This document shows positions 3,786 to 10,397 of a stretch of DNA of 48,503 nt, piece after piece (position 1 is the first letter of the stretch; every line of letters starts with the position of its first letter). The notes below the pieces were generated by a model. That model did no database searches and was not told the origin of the DNA. It saw only the letters and a program-made list of their open reading frames with translations. The DNA comes from Akkermansia muciniphila (GTDB taxonomy: Bacteria > Verrucomicrobiota > Verrucomicrobiia > Limisphaerales > BJHT01). Where the stretch lies: assembly GCA_945861535.1 (NCBI GenBank), contig CAMAUZ010000063.1, positions 1 through 48,503 of the forward strand, given 5' to 3'. The position numbers and the translations under genes were made by a program.

Positions 3786-4538
3786 TCAGAGAAAGGGGAG
3801 GGTGAGGTGGAGGTGGCGGAGGGGGCCGTGTGGGGTGAGGCGGAACCAGAGGACTAAACTGGGGCGGGGGCGGAGGCGGGCGCGGTGGCGCGGGGAGCGG
3901 GCGCATTTTTGGAGGTCGGCGGGGGTGAAGCGGAGGGGGAGAAAAATGCAGTGGCGTCCGGGAGTGGCGGCGGCGAGGGCGGCGGTTTCGTAGCGCAGGA
4001 GGTTGGTGATCCAAGGAGGGATCGATTTGGCGGGGGTGGCGTTTTTGTTTTCGCGGAGGAGGTGGGCGGCGAAGTGGCGGGCGTCGTCGGTGTGGTGGCG
4101 GGGGGCGGGAAGGGTTTTTTGGAATAGTAGTTTTGAGAGGAAGTGGGCGAACGGTGAGGGAGCGCGGCCCTCCGGGCCGCAGCGGGTGGGGGTGGCGGAG
4201 GTCGTGGAAATTTCCACTGCGCGTTGTGAGTTCGGGGCCGCTGCGGGCGGGACGCCCGCGCGCCGGTCGGCCCAGGCGAGGAAGCGGGGGGCGAATTGGC
4301 GGCCGAGGGCGCGACGGGTGAGGGGGAGAAGTTTGGCGGTGTCGCCGAGGCGTTTGTTTTGGAGGGAGCGGGCAAAGCGGGTGATCTCGGCGCGCGGCAG
4401 GTGGGTGAGGACAGGGAGGTCGGCGGGCGGGAGGGAGAATTGCGCGGCGACGGTGGCGGGGTGCGCGAAGAATTGTTCGCGGACGCGCGGGTCGGTGTAG
4501 AGGTGCGCGAGGAGGCGCTGGGTTTCGGCTAGGCCCAT
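3786..4538 (-). CDS. Probable MNIO partner protein (third gene of DUF692 operon)
   Basis: This is a 250-residue protein whose start codon overlaps the end of the DUF692 gene by 10 bp, so the two are translationally coupled. The N-terminal 90 residues (E-T-Q-R-L-L-A-H-L-Y-T-D-P, later R-F-A-R-S-L-Q-N-K-R) are helical and resemble the DUF2063-type partner proteins that escort peptide substrates to DUF692/MNIO enzymes. The C-terminal third may be the substrate-docking part. Residues roughly 90-130 are low-complexity because a palindromic GC-rich repeat (4158-4266) sits in frame inside the gene. The partner role is inferred from gene order and weak resemblance; no decisive motif is visible. Confidence 0.6.
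   Translation of the reverse strand: MGLAETQRLLAHLYTDPRVREQFFAHPATVAAQFSLPPADLPVLTHLPRAEITRFARSLQNKRLGDTAKLLPLTRRALGRQFAPRFLAWADRRAGVPPAAAPNSQRAVEISTTSATPTRCGPEGRAPSPFAHFLSKLLFQKTLPAPRHHTDDARHFAAHLLRENKNATPAKSIPPWITNLLRYETAALAAATPGRHCIFLPLRFTPADLQKCARSPRHRARLRPRPSLVLWFRLTPHGPLRHLHLTLPFL
4158..4266. repeat. Palindromic repeat inserted in frame inside a coding region
   Basis: Contains the palindromes CGGCCCTCCGGGCCG, GTGGAAATTTCCAC and GCGGGCGGGACGCCCGC. This is the same style as the intergenic repeats but lies within the MNIO-partner gene without breaking its frame, encoding a Gly/Pro/Ala/Arg-rich linker. Confidence 0.6.
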
Positions 4539-5452
4539 CGGTGGTGGCGGCGCCCGAGGTCGCGGGCGCGGGTGAGTTCGGCGGCGAGTTCGGCGAAGGG
4601 CGGGAGATTTTCGTCGCGCTCAAGGATGACGCCGCGGACGGGCGCGCGGTGGAGGACGTGTTCGAGGAGGTCCCAGACTGCGGGCGGCGTGGGCTGGGAA
4701 TGGCTGTCGATCAGTTCGCCGTGGTGGGTGTGGCCGCCGGTGAAGTGGAGCTGCACGACGCGGTCGAGCGGCAGCGCGGCGAGCGCGGCGTGCGGGTCGG
4801 TGCGGTGGTTGACGCAGTTGGTGTGGAGGTTGGTGACGTCGAGGAGCAGGCCGCAGTCGGTCGCGGCGAGGACGGCGGAGACGAAGCCGGCCTCGGTCAT
4901 TTCCGCGCCGGGCAGATGGACGGAGAACGTGATGTTTTCGAGAATCAGCGGCGTGGGGATGTGGCGGCGGACGTGGGCGACATTGGCGGCGAAGACATCA
5001 ACGGCTTCGCGCGTGAAGGGCAAGGGTGTGAGGTGGCCGATCTCGACGCCGCCCGCGCGGGTGAAGGCGATGTGCTCGCTCCACCACGGCGGATCGAGGC
5101 GCTCGATGAGGCGCGCAAAGTTTTCGAGATAGGCGTCGTCGAGGCCGTCGGCGCTGCCGAGGGAGAGGTTTAGGCCGTGTGGGATGAGGGTGAAATGTTC
5201 GGCGAGGAGGTCGAGTTCGGCGGCTTTTTCGGGAGTGGGATCGAAGTAGTGGTCGGCGATGATTTCGAGAAAGTCGGCGGCGTCGGGGTGGAGGAAGAGG
5301 TCGCTGCGGAAGGGTTCACGGAAGCCGAGGCCGACACCGAGGGCGGGGAGGTGGGCGAAGGGGGCCGATGGGGCCGATGGGACGGATGGGACGGATGGGA
5401 CGGATGGGACCAATCGGGCGGGGGCTGAGAATGGGAGCGGCGTGGCGCGCAT
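4529..5452 (-). CDS. DUF692 / MNIO family multinuclear iron-dependent oxidase
   Basis: A 307-residue protein with the full DUF692 (UPF0276, MbnB/TglH/BufB) signature on a TIM-barrel fold: G-V-G-L near residue 39, A-D-H-Y-F-D-P, H-G-L-N-L-S-L-G, S-E-H-I-A, L-E-N-I-T-F, L-L-L-D-V-T-N-L, a Q-L-H-F-T-G-G-H/L-I-D-S-H-S-Q pair, and L-E-R-D-E-N-L-P. The His, Asp and Glu residues in these motifs are the usual two- to three-iron ligands. Known family members oxidatively modify cysteines in ribosomally made peptides. The first 38 residues hold a V-P-S/A-P-S repeat from a 9-bp tandem repeat and may be dispensable, or the true start may be further in. A GGTGGAG ribosome-binding site precedes the ATG. It sits 3 bp after the TIGR04222-like gene and overlaps the next gene by 10 bp. 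Confidence 0.93.
   Translation of the reverse strand: MRATPLPFSAPARLVPSVPSVPSVPSAPSAPFAHLPALGVGLGFREPFRSDLFLHPDAADFLEIIADHYFDPTPEKAAELDLLAEHFTLIPHGLNLSLGSADGLDDAYLENFARLIERLDPPWWSEHIAFTRAGGVEIGHLTPLPFTREAVDVFAANVAHVRRHIPTPLILENITFSVHLPGAEMTEAGFVSAVLAATDCGLLLDVTNLHTNCVNHRTDPHAALAALPLDRVVQLHFTGGHTHHGELIDSHSQPTPPAVWDLLEHVLHRAPVRGVILERDENLPPFAELAAELTRARDLGRRHHRWA
5361..5414. repeat. 9-bp tandem repeat (six units) inside the DUF692 gene
   Basis: Two GGGGCCGAT, three GGGACGGAT and one GGGACCAAT unit lie head to tail. The 9-bp period keeps the frame and encodes the Val/Ala-Pro-Ser repeat near the N-terminus of the MNIO enzyme, so copy-number change would lengthen or shorten the protein without a frameshift. 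Confidence 0.9.
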
Positions 5453-5455
5453 GGG

Positions 5456-6418
5456 TCAGTCTCCACCGCCGCCGCCACAGCCGCCGCAGCCGCCCCCACC
5501 GCCCCCGCCGCCACAACTGCTCCCACCGCTGCTACTACTGCTGCCGCAGCTGCTGCCGCTGCCGCAGGAACTGGAGGAGGATTGCTGCGGCGGGGCGAAG
5601 AGGTGGGCGTAATTTTTCCACGGGGTCTTGGCGAGGCTGGCGGTGCCGTAGATGGCGGCAAGGAGCAGGAGCGCGTCGGCGGCGAGGTGCGCGGCGGGTT
5701 CGAGGGCGGCGCGCTCGCGGAGTTTGTCGAAGGCGAGTTCGAGTTTCGCGAGATAGGCGCGGCCGCGGGCGCTGGTGTGGCGGCCGGCGCGGGCGACGAT
5801 GACGAGGAGCACGATGGTGCTGAGAATGCCCAGCGCGATGAGGAAGCCGACGTTGGTGCGACCGCGCGACAGGGCGATGCAGAGTTTGTAACCGCCGAGG
5901 CCGAGGATGAGCGCTGCCGCAGCGAGGCCCGCGGGCACGGCGGCGGCGGCGACCGCGGGCGGACAGAGGAGAAACTCGGCGTGCAGTTTTTGTTCGTAGG
6001 CCTTGGCGAGGCGGTCGAAGAGCGGGCCGGTGTCGGCGAGCCGGGCGGCGGACCAGGCGTTTTGGGGCGTGGCGAAGAGATCGAAGATTTCCCGCTCAAC
6101 CGGCGAGAGATGGCGCGGGTCGGGGTGACCTTTGGCGTGGAGGATTTGTGCCGGAGTGCCGGCGGTTTCCAGATAGTTGCGGTCGATGAGGCCGAGGATC
6201 AGGACGTGGATGAGTTCCGCGCGATTGCCGCGGAGGAAGGCGGTTTCGAGGGGATCGATTTTCGGGGGGACGGGCGGCGCGTGGAGTGAACCGGTGGTGT
6301 CACGCGAGCGGAGGTAGAGGTGGACGAGGACGAGGGTGGCGATGATGACGGTGGCGTAGAGGGCGAGGAAGTCAGGGCCGCGCAGGTCGGCGATGGGATT
6401 GTGGAGGAGCCAGTTCAT
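5456..6418 (-). CDS. TIGR04222-like membrane protein with Gly/Ser/Cys-rich C-terminal tail
   Basis: 320 residues. An N-terminal membrane helix (about 18-36) is followed by a soluble region with D-P-L-E-T-A-F-L-R-G-N and S-P-V-E-R-E-I-F typical of TIGR04222 proteins. Then come two hydrophobic segments (about 150-175 and 190-208) and an Ala-rich helix (about 240-258). From about residue 282 the chain is almost pure Ser, Gly and Cys: three S-S-C-G units, then a poly-Gly stretch with two more Cys, ending G-G-D. Five tail cysteines are present. It is the first gene of an operon with the DUF692 enzyme (3 bp downstream) and its probable partner. I infer that the tail is the modified substrate, by analogy with Cys-rich precursors of other MNIO enzymes. 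The low-complexity tail is encoded by CCG/CCA repeats but stays in frame. Confidence 0.85.
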   Translation of the reverse strand: MNWLLHNPIADLRGPDFLALYATVIIATLVLVHLYLRSRDTTGSLHAPPVPPKIDPLETAFLRGNRAELIHVLILGLIDRNYLETAGTPAQILHAKGHPDPRHLSPVEREIFDLFATPQNAWSAARLADTGPLFDRLAKAYEQKLHAEFLLCPPAVAAAAVPAGLAAAALILGLGGYKLCIALSRGRTNVGFLIALGILSTIVLLVIVARAGRHTSARGRAYLAKLELAFDKLRERAALEPAAHLAADALLLLAAIYGTASLAKTPWKNYAHLFAPPQQSSSSSCGSGSSCGSSSSSGGSSCGGGGGGGGCGGCGGGGGD

Positions 6419-6469: not shown

Positions 6470-6606
6470 GTAGCGCAGGTTTCCAAACCTGCTGTGTCGC
6501 CGACTTCGAAGTCGGCGGGGCGTCGGCCAGCACGGGCGCGGCGAAAAGTTCCAGCGGCCGCAGGTTTAGAAACCTGCGACACAGCAGGCTTGGAAGCCTG
6601 CGGTAC
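6470..6606. repeat. 30-bp inverted repeat with inner palindromes
   Basis: Arms 6470-6499 and 6577-6606 are near-perfect complements containing the inner palindromes CAGGTTTCCAAACCTG and CAGGCTTGGAAGCCTG. A GCCGACTTCGAAGTCGGC palindrome lies between. The element fills the gap upstream of the MNIO operon; related pieces occur near 39365-39411. Confidence 0.8.
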
Positions 6607-6642: not shown

Positions 6643-7386
6643 TCAGAGTTTTTCCGTGAGCCGCGCGGCCTGGTGGATGGTGTCGAGGAAGGCACCGAAG
6701 AGCTGCTTGAGGGCGGCGGCATCGGGTTTGAGTTCGCCGCGCTTGAGGGCGAGGAGATCGCGCAGGAACTGGGCGTTGAGACCGAGCTTGTCGGCGTTGG
6801 CGACGGTGGTGGCTTTGGTCGCGGGACGTTCGCCGGTCTGGAGTTCGACGAGCGCGCCGAGCGTGGTGAGGAACGAGGAGACGGCGTGGGTGAGGGTTTC
6901 CTCGAGCTGCTCGGGACGGTGGCCGCGCTGGAGATAGAAGGAGCGGAGGCGGAGCAGGAGATTTTGTAATTCACGCGCGCACTGGCGGCGGAGGCGGTCG
7001 CGGGTGATCGCGAGTTGCGCGAAGATTTCGCGGCCGGCGAGCAGGCGGTGCTGGCGCTGGATGTCGGTGAACTTGATCGGGAAAACTTCGGAGAAGGTGG
7101 GCAGGTCGGCTTCGGCGAGGGTCAGCAGCGCGAGCGGGAATTCGGCGCGGGCCTGTTCCATGGCGGGGAGGAGGGCGTCCAACGCGGGGAGCGTGGCCGA
7201 GCGGAGGACGACGAGGACATTCACATCGGAATTGCCGGGTGTGAATTCGCCCTTGGCGAGTCCGCCGTAGAGCACGACGGCGATGAGCTGATCGCCGAGC
7301 GCGGCGGTGAGGTCGGTGCAGAAACGGGTGAGACCGTGGCGGATGGTTTCCGGCAGAGCCGGATCGGTTTTCCAGTCGGCGGGCAT
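6643..7386 (-). CDS. Nucleotidyltransferase-domain protein
   Basis: 247 residues from the ATG at 7386, chosen because the frame upstream of it only translates the palindromic repeat at 7443-7572. Residues about 25-50 read V-V-L-Y-G-G-L-A-K-G-E-F-T-P then N-S-D-V-N-V-L-V-V-L. This fits the G-G/S-x(9-11)-S-D-x-(D/N)-hydrophobic signature of the pol-beta-type NTP_transf_2 fold, with Asn in place of the second metal-binding Asp. The C-terminal half is helical with Arg/Leu-rich heptads and could be a substrate- or partner-binding helical domain. Targets of such enzymes include antibiotics, RNA and proteins; none can be chosen here. It is transcribed divergently from the first Ig-protein gene and is not part of an operon. 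Confidence 0.75.
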   Translation of the reverse strand: MPADWKTDPALPETIRHGLTRFCTDLTAALGDQLIAVVLYGGLAKGEFTPGNSDVNVLVVLRSATLPALDALLPAMEQARAEFPLALLTLAEADLPTFSEVFPIKFTDIQRQHRLLAGREIFAQLAITRDRLRRQCARELQNLLLRLRSFYLQRGHRPEQLEETLTHAVSSFLTTLGALVELQTGERPATKATTVANADKLGLNAQFLRDLLALKRGELKPDAAALKQLFGAFLDTIHQAARLTEKL

Positions 7387-7442
7387 GGGCGGACCGTAGC
7401 GAGGGGCGCAGGTGGCGGCGAGGGTTTTTCGGGCCGCGGGTG

Positions 7443-7572
7443 TGGGGGCAGGCATCCCTGCCTGCCGGTTCTCGGGGCATCCGTGCCCCGTGTTCCGGGT
7501 ACCGCTGCGCCGCCGCGAGGAACGGGCGGCACGGATGCCGCCCGAACCGGCAGGCTGGAAGCCTGCCCCACC
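7443..7572 (+). repeat. 130-bp palindromic element, copy 1 of 5 (GGGGCAGGCATCC family)
   Basis: Starts TGGGGGCAGGCATCC and ends GAAGCCTGCCCCACC, with an inner pair CGGGGCATCCGTGCCCCG and a CGGGCGGCACGGATGCCGCCCG palindrome. The two ends pair with each other. Other copies are at 27255, 35305, 41908 and 48149, all in the same orientation. Confidence 0.9.
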
Positions 7573-7591
7573 TCTCCGCTCACGCCATCCC

Positions 7592-7670
7592 GGACCATGC
7601 GCGCACCGACGGCGGTCCGTCGGCGGACCGCGGCTGCGGCGACGACGGACCGGACCAGGGGCCGGACCAC
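7592..7670 (+). promoter_or_regulatory. Candidate enhancer array of GGACC boxes upstream of Ig gene 1
   Basis: GGACC(A/G) occurs at 7592, 7625, 7647, 7652 and 7664. Arrays of the same box precede the sigma-54 sites of all four paralogues at 51-62 bp distance, where enhancer-binding activators usually bind. The binding protein is not in the window. Confidence 0.55.
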
Positions 7671-7723
7671 ATTCTTTGGGATGAAGACACCCCAGCGCGG
7701 GGTGAGCGGGGATTTTCACGGGA

Positions 7724-7739
7724 TGGCACCGGCGGTGCT
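7724..7739 (+). promoter_or_regulatory. Sigma-54 promoter of Ig gene 1
   Basis: TGGCACCGGCGGTGCT fits the -24/-12 consensus TGGCACG-N4-TTGCW, with GG and GC separated by exactly 10 bp. It lies 80 bp before the ATG, within a block conserved upstream of all four paralogues (GGGGTGAGC...CACGGGATGGCACC). Confidence 0.8.
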
Positions 7740-7819
7740 CCATTCCGGTCCAGCGATAGGTCGCGTCATGATTGCAAGGAAGCAACCGGACCGGCCAGGG
7801 ACGAAAACTGAAAACAATT

Positions 7820-10397
7820 ATGGACAGCAACTACCGAAAACTCCTCCTCCTCGGAAACGTCATCCTCGGCCTGATGGCACTCTCGGCCAAGGCGGCCGGG
7901 ACCAAGCCCGCGATCAGCACCCAGCCGACCGCGACACTGAACGCGGCGGTGGGCACCTCACCCAGTCTCACGGTGGTTGCCTCGGGTACCGCGCCGCTGG
8001 CCTACCAATGGCGCAAGGACGGGGTGCCGGTCCCCGGCGCCACCAGTGCCACCCTCGCTTTCCCCGTCGCCCAGATCATCCAATCCGGCAGCTACACGGT
8101 CGTCATCTCCAATAATGCCGGCACCGCCACCAGCACCGCCGCCAACGTCCAGATCGGATTGCCTCCGGTCATAACGGTCCAACCGCTGCCCGCCCTCGGC
8201 CGGCTCGACGACTTTGCCGAATTCGCGACGGCGGTGACGGGTTCCGCCCCGCTATCCTATCAATGGCGTCGCAATGGCGCTCCGATCCCGGGTGCAAGCG
8301 GCAACCCGTTCCAATTGAGTCCGGTGCTCGCCACCAGTGCGGGGGATTACTCGGTGGTGGTCAGCAATCCCTTTGGCTCCGTCACCAGCGCGGCGGCCTA
8401 TTTGAATGTGATGGGCATCACCGACCAACCCCTGTCGCAGGCGGTCGCGCCGGGTGCCAATGTGACCTTGATCTGCGGCGTCGCGGGCAATCCCGCGCCC
8501 GCCTGTCAGTGGTATCTTCAAGGTGGCTTTCCTATTCCCGGCGCGACCAATGCCACGCTATCGCTGACGAATGTGACCGTCGCCGAGGGGGGGGCGGTAT
8601 TATCTGGCGGCCAACTACGGCCCGGCCGAAGGCACGGTGGAAAGTGAGTGGGCGCAGTTATCGGTCACCGTTCCCGCATTGCCGTGGGCGGACCTGTTTG
8701 CGGGTCGCGGCACGATCACCGGGGCGAGCGGCTCGGGCAGCGGTAATAACTTAAATGCCACCACTGAAACCGGCGAACCCAGCTCCTATGCCTACAAGGC
8801 TAATCACTCGGTCTGGCTCAAATGGACCGCGCCCACCAACGGCGTGGTCGTCATGAGCACTGCCGGCAGTGATTTTGATACCATCCTTGGTGTATTCCAC
8901 GGGACGGCGGTGGACGCTCTGACGTTGGTGGTGGCCGATGATGAGAGTGGCGGCTATCTCAACAGCAAGGTCAGCTTCAGCGCCCAGGCGGGCGTGGAAT
9001 ACAGCATCGTCGTTGCGGGCTTTGCCGGGGCTGCGGGTCAGATCGGCTTCTCCTGGCACCTGACGCCTTCGGGGATTGCCCTCCCCGTCATTACGTCACC
9101 GCTCAGTCTTGCGGGCGTCCTGGGCAGCCCGGTGGCACTGTCGGTGGGCTATGTCGGCAACAGTGCGCCGGTGAGGGTGCAATGGCTCTTTGAAGGTCAG
9201 CCGATAACCGGCGCAACCAACGACACTCATAATCTGCCGAGTCTCCAACTGGCTCAGCTTGGCGTTTATCAGGCCCGTCTGGAAACCGGCCCCTTCACCC
9301 TGTTCTCCCGCCCGGCCGACGTGCAGATCAACACCGAAGGACTCACCCGTGCCATCGCCCAGAACCGCGAGGCGGACGCCGATCGATCCGGCATCAACGG
9401 CGGGGCCGGTCCCACGGCCGGTCTCCGGCGGCGGATCACGGCGGTGAGCGGCTACAGCGGCACGCAGATCTTCGCCACCCGCTCGGGCAAAGACCCGGCG
9501 GAACCCAATCACTGCGGCGTGGTCGGTGGTTCCTCCTACTGGCTCAGCTATGCCCCCCCGGTCACTGGCACCGTCTTTCTGGACACGGCTGGCAGCGCTT
9601 ACGATACCCTCCTCGCAGTCTATACCGATGATGGTCTGGGCAATGGTTACGCCAGTCTCATCTCTGTCGCCTGCAATGACAACGTGAGCCCCACGCTCAC
9701 GACCAGCAGCCTGACCTTCAACGGCACCGTCGGGGTCACCTATTACATCGTCGTGGACGGCAAAAACGGCGCTTACGGCTCGGCCTATCTTAATTACCGC
9801 ATCAGCGCGCCGCCGACGATCACCGCCCTGGCCGCCATGACCATTAACGAAGACACCAGCACCGGCGCCCGCGCCTTCGCCGTCGGCGATGCCGAATCCT
9901 CCGCCGCCAATCTCGTCGTCACCGCCTCGTCCTCCAATCCCGCCATCGTCCCCGCGTCGGGACTGATCCTCGGCGGCACGGGCGCCAGCCGCACGCTCAA
10001 CGTCATCCCTGCCGCCAACAAAAACGGCAGCGTCACCATCACCGTCACGGTGACCGATGCCGACGGCGTCGCCACCTCGAGCTCCTTCACCCTCACGATC
10101 ACCCCGGTCAACGACGCCCCCGTCGCCGGCACCGATACGCTCTATCGCGCCATCAATGCCAACATCACCGTCCCGATCACCACCCTCCTCGCCAACGACA
10201 CCGACGTGGACGGCAACCCCCGCACCCTGACCTCGGTGGCCAGCCTCAGCTACCTGGGAGCGACCATCACCAAGACCTCCACCAGCGTTACCTACAAAGC
10301 CAAAGCCGGTGTCAATGGTCCTGATTACTTCCTCTACACCATCAGCGATGGTCAAGGCGGCACCGCCACCGGCCGCGTGAACGTGTACGCGCAGTAG
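7820..10397 (+). pseudogene. Exported multi-Ig/PPC/cadherin-like protein, paralogue 1, frameshifted at a G8 tract
   Basis: The ATG at 7820 opens a signal peptide (K-L-L-L-L-G-N-V-I-L-G-L then S-A-K-A). Three Ig-like domains follow (each with Y-Q-W or C-Q-W and G-x-Y/D-x-V-V-x-S-N), then a PPC-like beta domain (V-W-L-K-W-T-A-P), a fourth Ig-like domain, a second PPC-like domain with conserved N-H-C-G and V-A-C-N-D-N cysteines, and cadherin/Big_9-like repeats ending G-R-V-N-V-Y-A-Q. At 8587-8594 there are eight Gs. Removing one joins the upstream frame (which otherwise stops at 8647) to the downstream frame and restores a paralogue-like sequence, giving about 858 residues. The extra G may be a real mutation, a phase-variation state or a sequencing error. 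It is likely secreted or surface-located; no anchor motif is visible. Confidence 0.85.

Follow-up and report, generated by a model that had tools for sequence, protein, structure and literature searches.

Does a Cys-rich membrane protein encoded beside a DUF692 (MNIO) enzyme carry the substrate of that enzyme on its own C-terminus? The locus that raises this question lies in a 48,503-nt stretch of an Akkermansia muciniphila contig (CAMAUZ010000063.1), which is referred to here as the window. A first-pass annotation had proposed three coupled genes, and inspection of the open reading frames confirmed that they are complete, closely spaced and all on the minus strand. They encode a TIGR04222 membrane protein, T (5456-6418; 320 aa, three predicted TM helices), an MNIO enzyme, M (4529-5452; 307 aa), and a partner protein, P (3786-4538; 250 aa), with a gap of 3 nt between T and M and an overlap of 10 nt between P and the stop of M. 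Whole-genome searches found one TIGR04222 gene and one MNIO (PF05114) gene, side by side. The proposed substrate is formed by the 41 C-terminal residues of T (residues 280-320; 5459..5581, minus strand), a Ser/Gly segment with five Cys, as had been annotated. The remark that no separate short precursor gene accompanies the operon also holds for the window, in which no second Gly/Ser/Cys-tailed open reading frame and no other Cys-rich short open reading frame was found besides the tail of T.

The TIGR04222-like and DUF692 identities given in the annotation were borne out by profile searches. T matches TIGR04222 above the cut-off (E 7e-31, 107.6 bits, cut-off 43), with weak DUF2207_C similarity in the Pfam search, and M belongs to the MNIO superfamily (PF05114, E 7.5e-85, 284.8 bits, cut-off 25). 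The best NCBIfam model for M is BufB (233 bits, cut-off 310), and M reaches 203 bits with HvfB (cut-off 360), thus staying below both equivalog cut-offs for bufferin maturases. The description of M as a complete enzyme is consistent with its iron ligands (H92, H127, E172, D205, N208, H236, D249, H251 and E278), nine of nine being identical to those of TglH (H71, H107, E151, D184, N187, H216, D229, H231 and E258; PMC10880893). The start codon of M is uncertain, homology extending only from about residue 33-39.

For P, annotated as a small probable partner, only the predicted fold revealed relatives. Its AlphaFold2 model (pLDDT 84.5) resembles TglI (8hi7_A; Z 10.8 over 187 residues, nearly the entire structured length), NGO1945 (3dee; Z 8.5) and Os1348 (6lk7; Z 7.4). 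At the sequence level, Os1348/NHLP models matched P only below cut-off, a PDB sequence search with the P profile returned nothing significant, and the DUF2063 signature of PME-type 1 partners was not found in P, Pfam at E <= 1 giving only a chance-level DZF_N match. PME-type 2 partners are defined by an NGO1945/TglI-like structure, a missing DUF2063 Pfam signature and a gene position after the MNIO; judged by its modelled fold, P is a protein of this type. It belongs to a conserved family, A1. An inverted-repeat element (4159..4264, no strand assigned; 27-nt arms, 52 nt apart) sits within the P gene, in a stretch that is missing from the P of a congener and coincides with the low-pLDDT part of the model.

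The link between TIGR04222 and DUF692 mentioned in the annotation is present in Antoine et al. 2025 (PMC12452194), who described clusters in which TIGR04222 and MNIO genes occur with a PME-type 2 partner, and who proposed the Cys tail as substrate; the tail-as-substrate idea is therefore not new. With C-proximal Cys in T, an adjacent MNIO and a PME2, the window locus is such a cluster, encoding these three proteins in identical order, with Cys in a Ser/Gly-rich C-terminal tail. Antoine et al. also reported many TIGR04222 genes without an MNIO and, in some clusters, further genes of unknown kind (PMC12452194). Their main text names neither the WHxH proteins nor the radical-SAM proteins described below as alternatives, and the literature searched yielded no other paper on the findings added here. 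Our analysis differs from the published account in an additional upstream gene (N), in these alternative partners and in a topology favouring a cytosolic tail. Besides the partners and N, what is new here is the comparison of 85 genes, the joint absence observed in Methylocystaceae and the view of the tail as a module.

The 85 distinct T genes were drawn from the phylum, order and genus to which the window belongs, from Planctomycetota, Cyanobacteriota, Pseudomonadota and one alphaproteobacterial family, and from loci found via MNIO; Actinomycetota, where TIGR04222 is commonest, are outside the survey. Gene calls were open reading frames, and the custom profile models relied on small seeds. 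An MNIO is adjacent to 30 T genes, a WHxH protein to 38 and a radical-SAM/SPASM protein to 6, with 11 having none of these; neighbourhoods were mostly assessed over 1.5-3 kb, and the 'none' cases include some on short contigs. Since MNIO itself served as the query for part of the MNIO-type set, these counts are not frequencies. T orthologues adjoin an MNIO in several phyla, and the T-MNIO-partner order, which the annotation had suggested looking for in other genomes, recurs in many phyla. WHxH genes lie directly upstream of T or are fused to it, and the radical-SAM/SPASM genes lie downstream (one at 1.7 kb). At least two Cys within the last 60 residues are found in all 74 T genes with a partner, as against 5 of the 11 without (Fisher 1e-6, ignoring the relatedness of the genes). 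A plasmid search using a T protein gave no matches.

None of the 85 T genes has two of the three partners. Part of this pattern reflects shared ancestry, because the WHxH and MNIO clades each make up nearly one side of the tree. In a quick T tree, the WHxH type forms nearly one group, and well-supported branches require at least four changes for the radical-SAM type and at least four for the MNIO type. The independent evidence consists of the radical-SAM cases, locus L224 and the absence in Methylocystaceae. The radical-SAM proteins beside T combine a Radical_SAM domain with a SPASM match (which in L185 stays under the Pfam cut-off); their nearest models are TIGR04082 (SbtM) or TIGR04340, both under cut-off (for SbtM, 114-152 against 350 bits). 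An MNIO is absent from 14 of the 24 WHxH-type genomes checked, for which reason service of these tails by an MNIO encoded elsewhere was rejected; among the other ten, nine have higher-scoring MNIOs (329-377 bits) that lie away from T, and one match is weak (98 bits). An MNIO is thus not required for a Cys tail and is only one of several routes to it, and since relatives pair the same kind of tail with unrelated partner proteins, we regard the tail as the heart of the system.

A natural experiment is provided by Methylocystis and its relatives, which share a conserved block of genes, COX15-T-M-P-next gene (L183, L184). T and both flanks are also present in two further genomes (L181, L182), but M and P are missing there, and T ends in FERASGAGDD and FQDASGNCDE, respectively, without the Cys tail. 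In a separate, careful tree of 63 rows, these two group within the MNIO-type clade as sisters of L064; because they are nested there, a single loss of M, P and the Cys tail is the best reading. One of the two genomes has a distant MNIO (920 kb away), which at 367 bits scores above the T-linked kind, and the other has none.

Directly upstream of T in the window lies the nucleotidyltransferase-like gene N (6643-7464, minus strand), with a weak match to NTP_transf_2 (PF01909; 20.7 bits, cut-off 21) and an uncertain start, the open reading frame reaching 7830. N shares 32% identity over 237 aa (E 6e-48) with the gene after the partner in the marine Verrucomicrobiales locus L066, and an N-like gene is likewise placed after the partner in L067 and L073. 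HMM matches locate an N-like gene directly upstream of T in 12 of the 85 cases, window included (7 of the MNIO type, 3 of the radical-SAM type, 2 without enzyme and none of the 38 of the WHxH type). The annotated operon of T, M and P stands, although not its limitation to three genes, since N belongs to the unit as a recurrent fourth member.

The tail also occurs on other scaffolds. The marine Verrucomicrobiales loci L066 and L073 contain an MNIO, a partner and a nucleotidyltransferase-like gene, and their genomes gave no TIGR04222 match; there, the same tail is found on short peptides that have one or two TM helices (L066, 6514-6717 and 6830-7093; L073, 7242-7439). On Rhizobium megaplasmids and large-phage contigs, the latter with phage genes around the fusion, WHxH, two TM helices and the Cys tail form a single protein. 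As the tail shifts scaffold yet keeps a candidate modifying protein, it behaves as a module, for which TIGR04222 is one among several membrane scaffolds. The WHxH protein itself has about 170 aa and is strongly conserved, with the motif D-x-x-W-H-x-H ... H-H-x-P-T. WHxH proteins matched nothing in Pfam or NCBIfam and had no relative among PDB sequences, and a structure model of the phage form was too weak to place (pLDDT 59). A distant relative, L226, narrowly passes PF07173 (25.0 vs 22.7 bits) and aligns with the WHxH profile (hhalign, 96.7%), which identifies the family, at the level of sequence profiles, as distant kin of the GRDP-like proteins. Its conserved His, Asp and Cys residues and its gene position suggest that the WHxH protein may be an enzyme.

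Based on these observations, we propose a hypothetical scheme in which (i) the operon would produce a protein that is anchored in the membrane and offers its unstructured Ser/Gly/Cys tail as the modification substrate; (ii) the TglI-like partner would hold this substrate while the nine-ligand iron MNIO oxidises the tail Cys; (iii) the tail module could be served by an MNIO with its partner, by a radical-SAM/SPASM enzyme of the SbtM kind or by a WHxH protein; and (iv) the tail would remain on the cytosolic side, the working site of the MNIO, and handle a soft metal or redox stress. We consider this scheme as a whole probable. Its first element, already put forward in the first-pass annotation, is supported at the sequence level by the predicted fold of P, the iron ligands, the gene order, the alternation of partners including the radical-SAM exchange, and the joint absence in Methylocystaceae, and that the MNIO modifies the tail in some way appears highly likely; the chemistry, location and role of the tail are proposed with less assurance. 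Copper or another soft metal as its purpose is a tentative suggestion.

Regarding location, Antoine et al. 2025 predict a periplasmic tail (PMC12452194), which would be exported and act there like the bufferins. In contrast, 71 of 82 proteins have more positive charge on the C-terminal than on the N-terminal side of TM1 (Wilcoxon 1e-12, relatedness ignored), the flank after TM3 averages 3.6 Lys/Arg, and positive residues follow the last TM in the short peptides and phage fusions. An N-out orientation with three crossings would leave the tail in the cytosol, and in the WHxH-2TM-tail proteins WHxH and tail necessarily share one side. Two features count against this orientation: the short TM2-TM3 loop also carries positive charge, and there is a borderline fourth hydrophobic helix. 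This last helix is weaker (median 1.46 vs 2.1-2.45), and it falls in the TM range in some members (1.8 or more in 12 of 82), which speaks for export. On balance, the charge bias and three-helix parity lead us to favour somewhat a cytosolic tail, and we rate the periplasmic placement as a serious but less probable option. A cytosolic tail would suit a cytosolic MNIO and remove the need for modification before export, and it makes the published placement a testable disagreement.

Our best guess for the product is a 5-thiooxazole, a copper-binding group corresponding to about -4 Da per Cys. Characterised MNIO-PME1 systems form 5-thiooxazole on Cys, with copper binding (PMC12668002), and the radical-SAM enzyme SbtM makes thiooxazole from Cys with the loss of four hydrogens (PMC11002830). 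As an MNIO and SbtM-like radical-SAM enzymes replace each other on one tail, 5-thiooxazole would be the most economical product. The window uses an MNIO instead of a radical-SAM enzyme; SbtM-like enzymes adjoin the same tails in relatives, and L066 encodes a full SbtM (522 bits) near its MNIO and two tail peptides. Thiooxazole is nevertheless an extrapolation, because M scores under the cut-offs for BufB and HvfB and is accompanied by a partner other than PME-type 1. The large distance of the radical-SAM proteins beside T from the SbtM cut-off also counts against the scheme. Given a modification, we see the chances of this product as even. The bufferins/captophorins (BufB/HvfB with PME-type 1) likewise combine a related MNIO, a Cys-rich substrate and a partner protein; the window differs from them in the scores of its MNIO, in a partner that has no DUF2063 signature, in a unit that contains no Sec-signal precursor and in a substrate segment carried by a membrane protein. 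MNIOs are chemically diverse, and another outcome, such as a methanobactin-like oxazolone-thioamide, a thioether, TglH-like beta-carbon excision or hydroxylation, would fit the resemblance of P to TglI, whose enzyme removes the Cys beta-carbon (PMC10880893). The window pair resembles TglHI (3-thiaglutamate) in its full set of iron ligands and in the fold predicted for the partner, but no TglA-like scaffold was seen in the unit and the putative substrate is a multi-Cys tail. We regard such other chemistry as rather unlikely, since BufB is the nearest NCBIfam match of M and the exchange with SbtM-like enzymes points to a chemistry common to both families.

Alternatively, the tail might act without modification, as a Cys-rich segment with a metal or redox function, with the MNIO helping otherwise or acting on another peptide. 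The persistence of tails in the WHxH-type genomes that lack an MNIO is consistent with this, as are the five T genes, some of them on short contigs, that encode a Cys tail although no enzyme was recognised in their vicinity. However, the WHxH-type genomes have their own dedicated partner, radical-SAM/SPASM maturases stand in for the MNIO, the Methylocystaceae block without MNIO and partner is also without the Cys tail, and the window offers no other Cys-rich short open reading frame, which together make an unmodified tail improbable. That the tail is a mere drifting low-complexity end, as the weak DUF2207_C similarity of T and the Cys-free Gly-rich tail of the DUF2207-like relative L123 might suggest, is strongly disfavoured and very improbable, and on sequence comparison the tail is not a chance run, because the congener L057 retains all five Cys in a tail four residues shorter, because tails of the same composition, mostly ending in CGGCG, occur in Verrucomicrobiota, Planctomycetota, Cyanobacteriota, Acidobacteriota, Pseudomonadota, Myxococcota and Armatimonadota, and because the Cys tail depends on an adjacent enzyme.

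In summary, the modified, membrane-anchored tail remains our preferred reading of the operon, and, if true, MNIO chemistry, so far associated with small secreted peptides, would also apply to the tail of a protein embedded in the membrane, and the purpose of TIGR04222 tails would become approachable by a few co-expression experiments. A bolder and so far doubtful extension would make the tail a mobile multi-thiooxazole module, anchored in the membrane and facing the cytosol, which bacteria and some large phages mature with one of three unrelated families, WHxH being an unrecognised peptide-modifying enzyme acting on the same Cys. Repeated replacement of MNIO by radical-SAM enzymes would mean that unrelated enzymes have converged on one substrate; this swapping points to the WHxH family, which also occurs in jumbo phages and has GRDP-like (PF07173) kin, as a likely new enzyme.

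The MNIO (DUF692) reading frame of the window carries, within its first ~30 codons, a tandem repeat (5360-5415) encoding Pro-Ser-Val/Ala runs. Because this N-terminal repeat is missing from homologues, the annotated start of the window MNIO may lie too far upstream. The same operon also contains two inverted repeats. One, with 27-nt arms, is an in-frame element inside the partner gene (4159-4264), and the ~50-residue stretch of the partner that contains it is missing from the protein of the congener, a same-genus relative; the other, a large repeat at 6470-6606 with 49-nt arms spaced 39 nt apart, takes up much of the intergenic gap between the nucleotidyltransferase-like gene and the TIGR04222 gene.

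In the large-phage IMG/VR contigs L162, L163, L164, L165, L166 and L167 (≤362 kb), a WHxH domain shares one protein with two TM helices and a Ser/Gly/Cys tail (L162 3992-4807; L164 3983-4927, for example), with phage DNA ligase, tRNA-His guanylyltransferase and DNA transfer protein families among the genes nearby. The tail of the WHxH-TIGR04222 fusion of Gloeothece (L108) reads GGCGCGC, and a methyltransferase gene (7265-7930) overlaps the 3' end of the fusion gene. At the marine Verrucomicrobiales locus L073 (7242-9247), the gene for a 65-aa, single-helix Cys-tail peptide precedes those for a DUF350 membrane protein and for a protein whose C-terminus is rich in Ser and Gly. The marine Verrucomicrobiota locus L066 (4227-9365) unites MNIO, partner and nucleotidyltransferase-like gene with two short Cys-tail membrane peptides and a full SbtM radical-SAM maturase.
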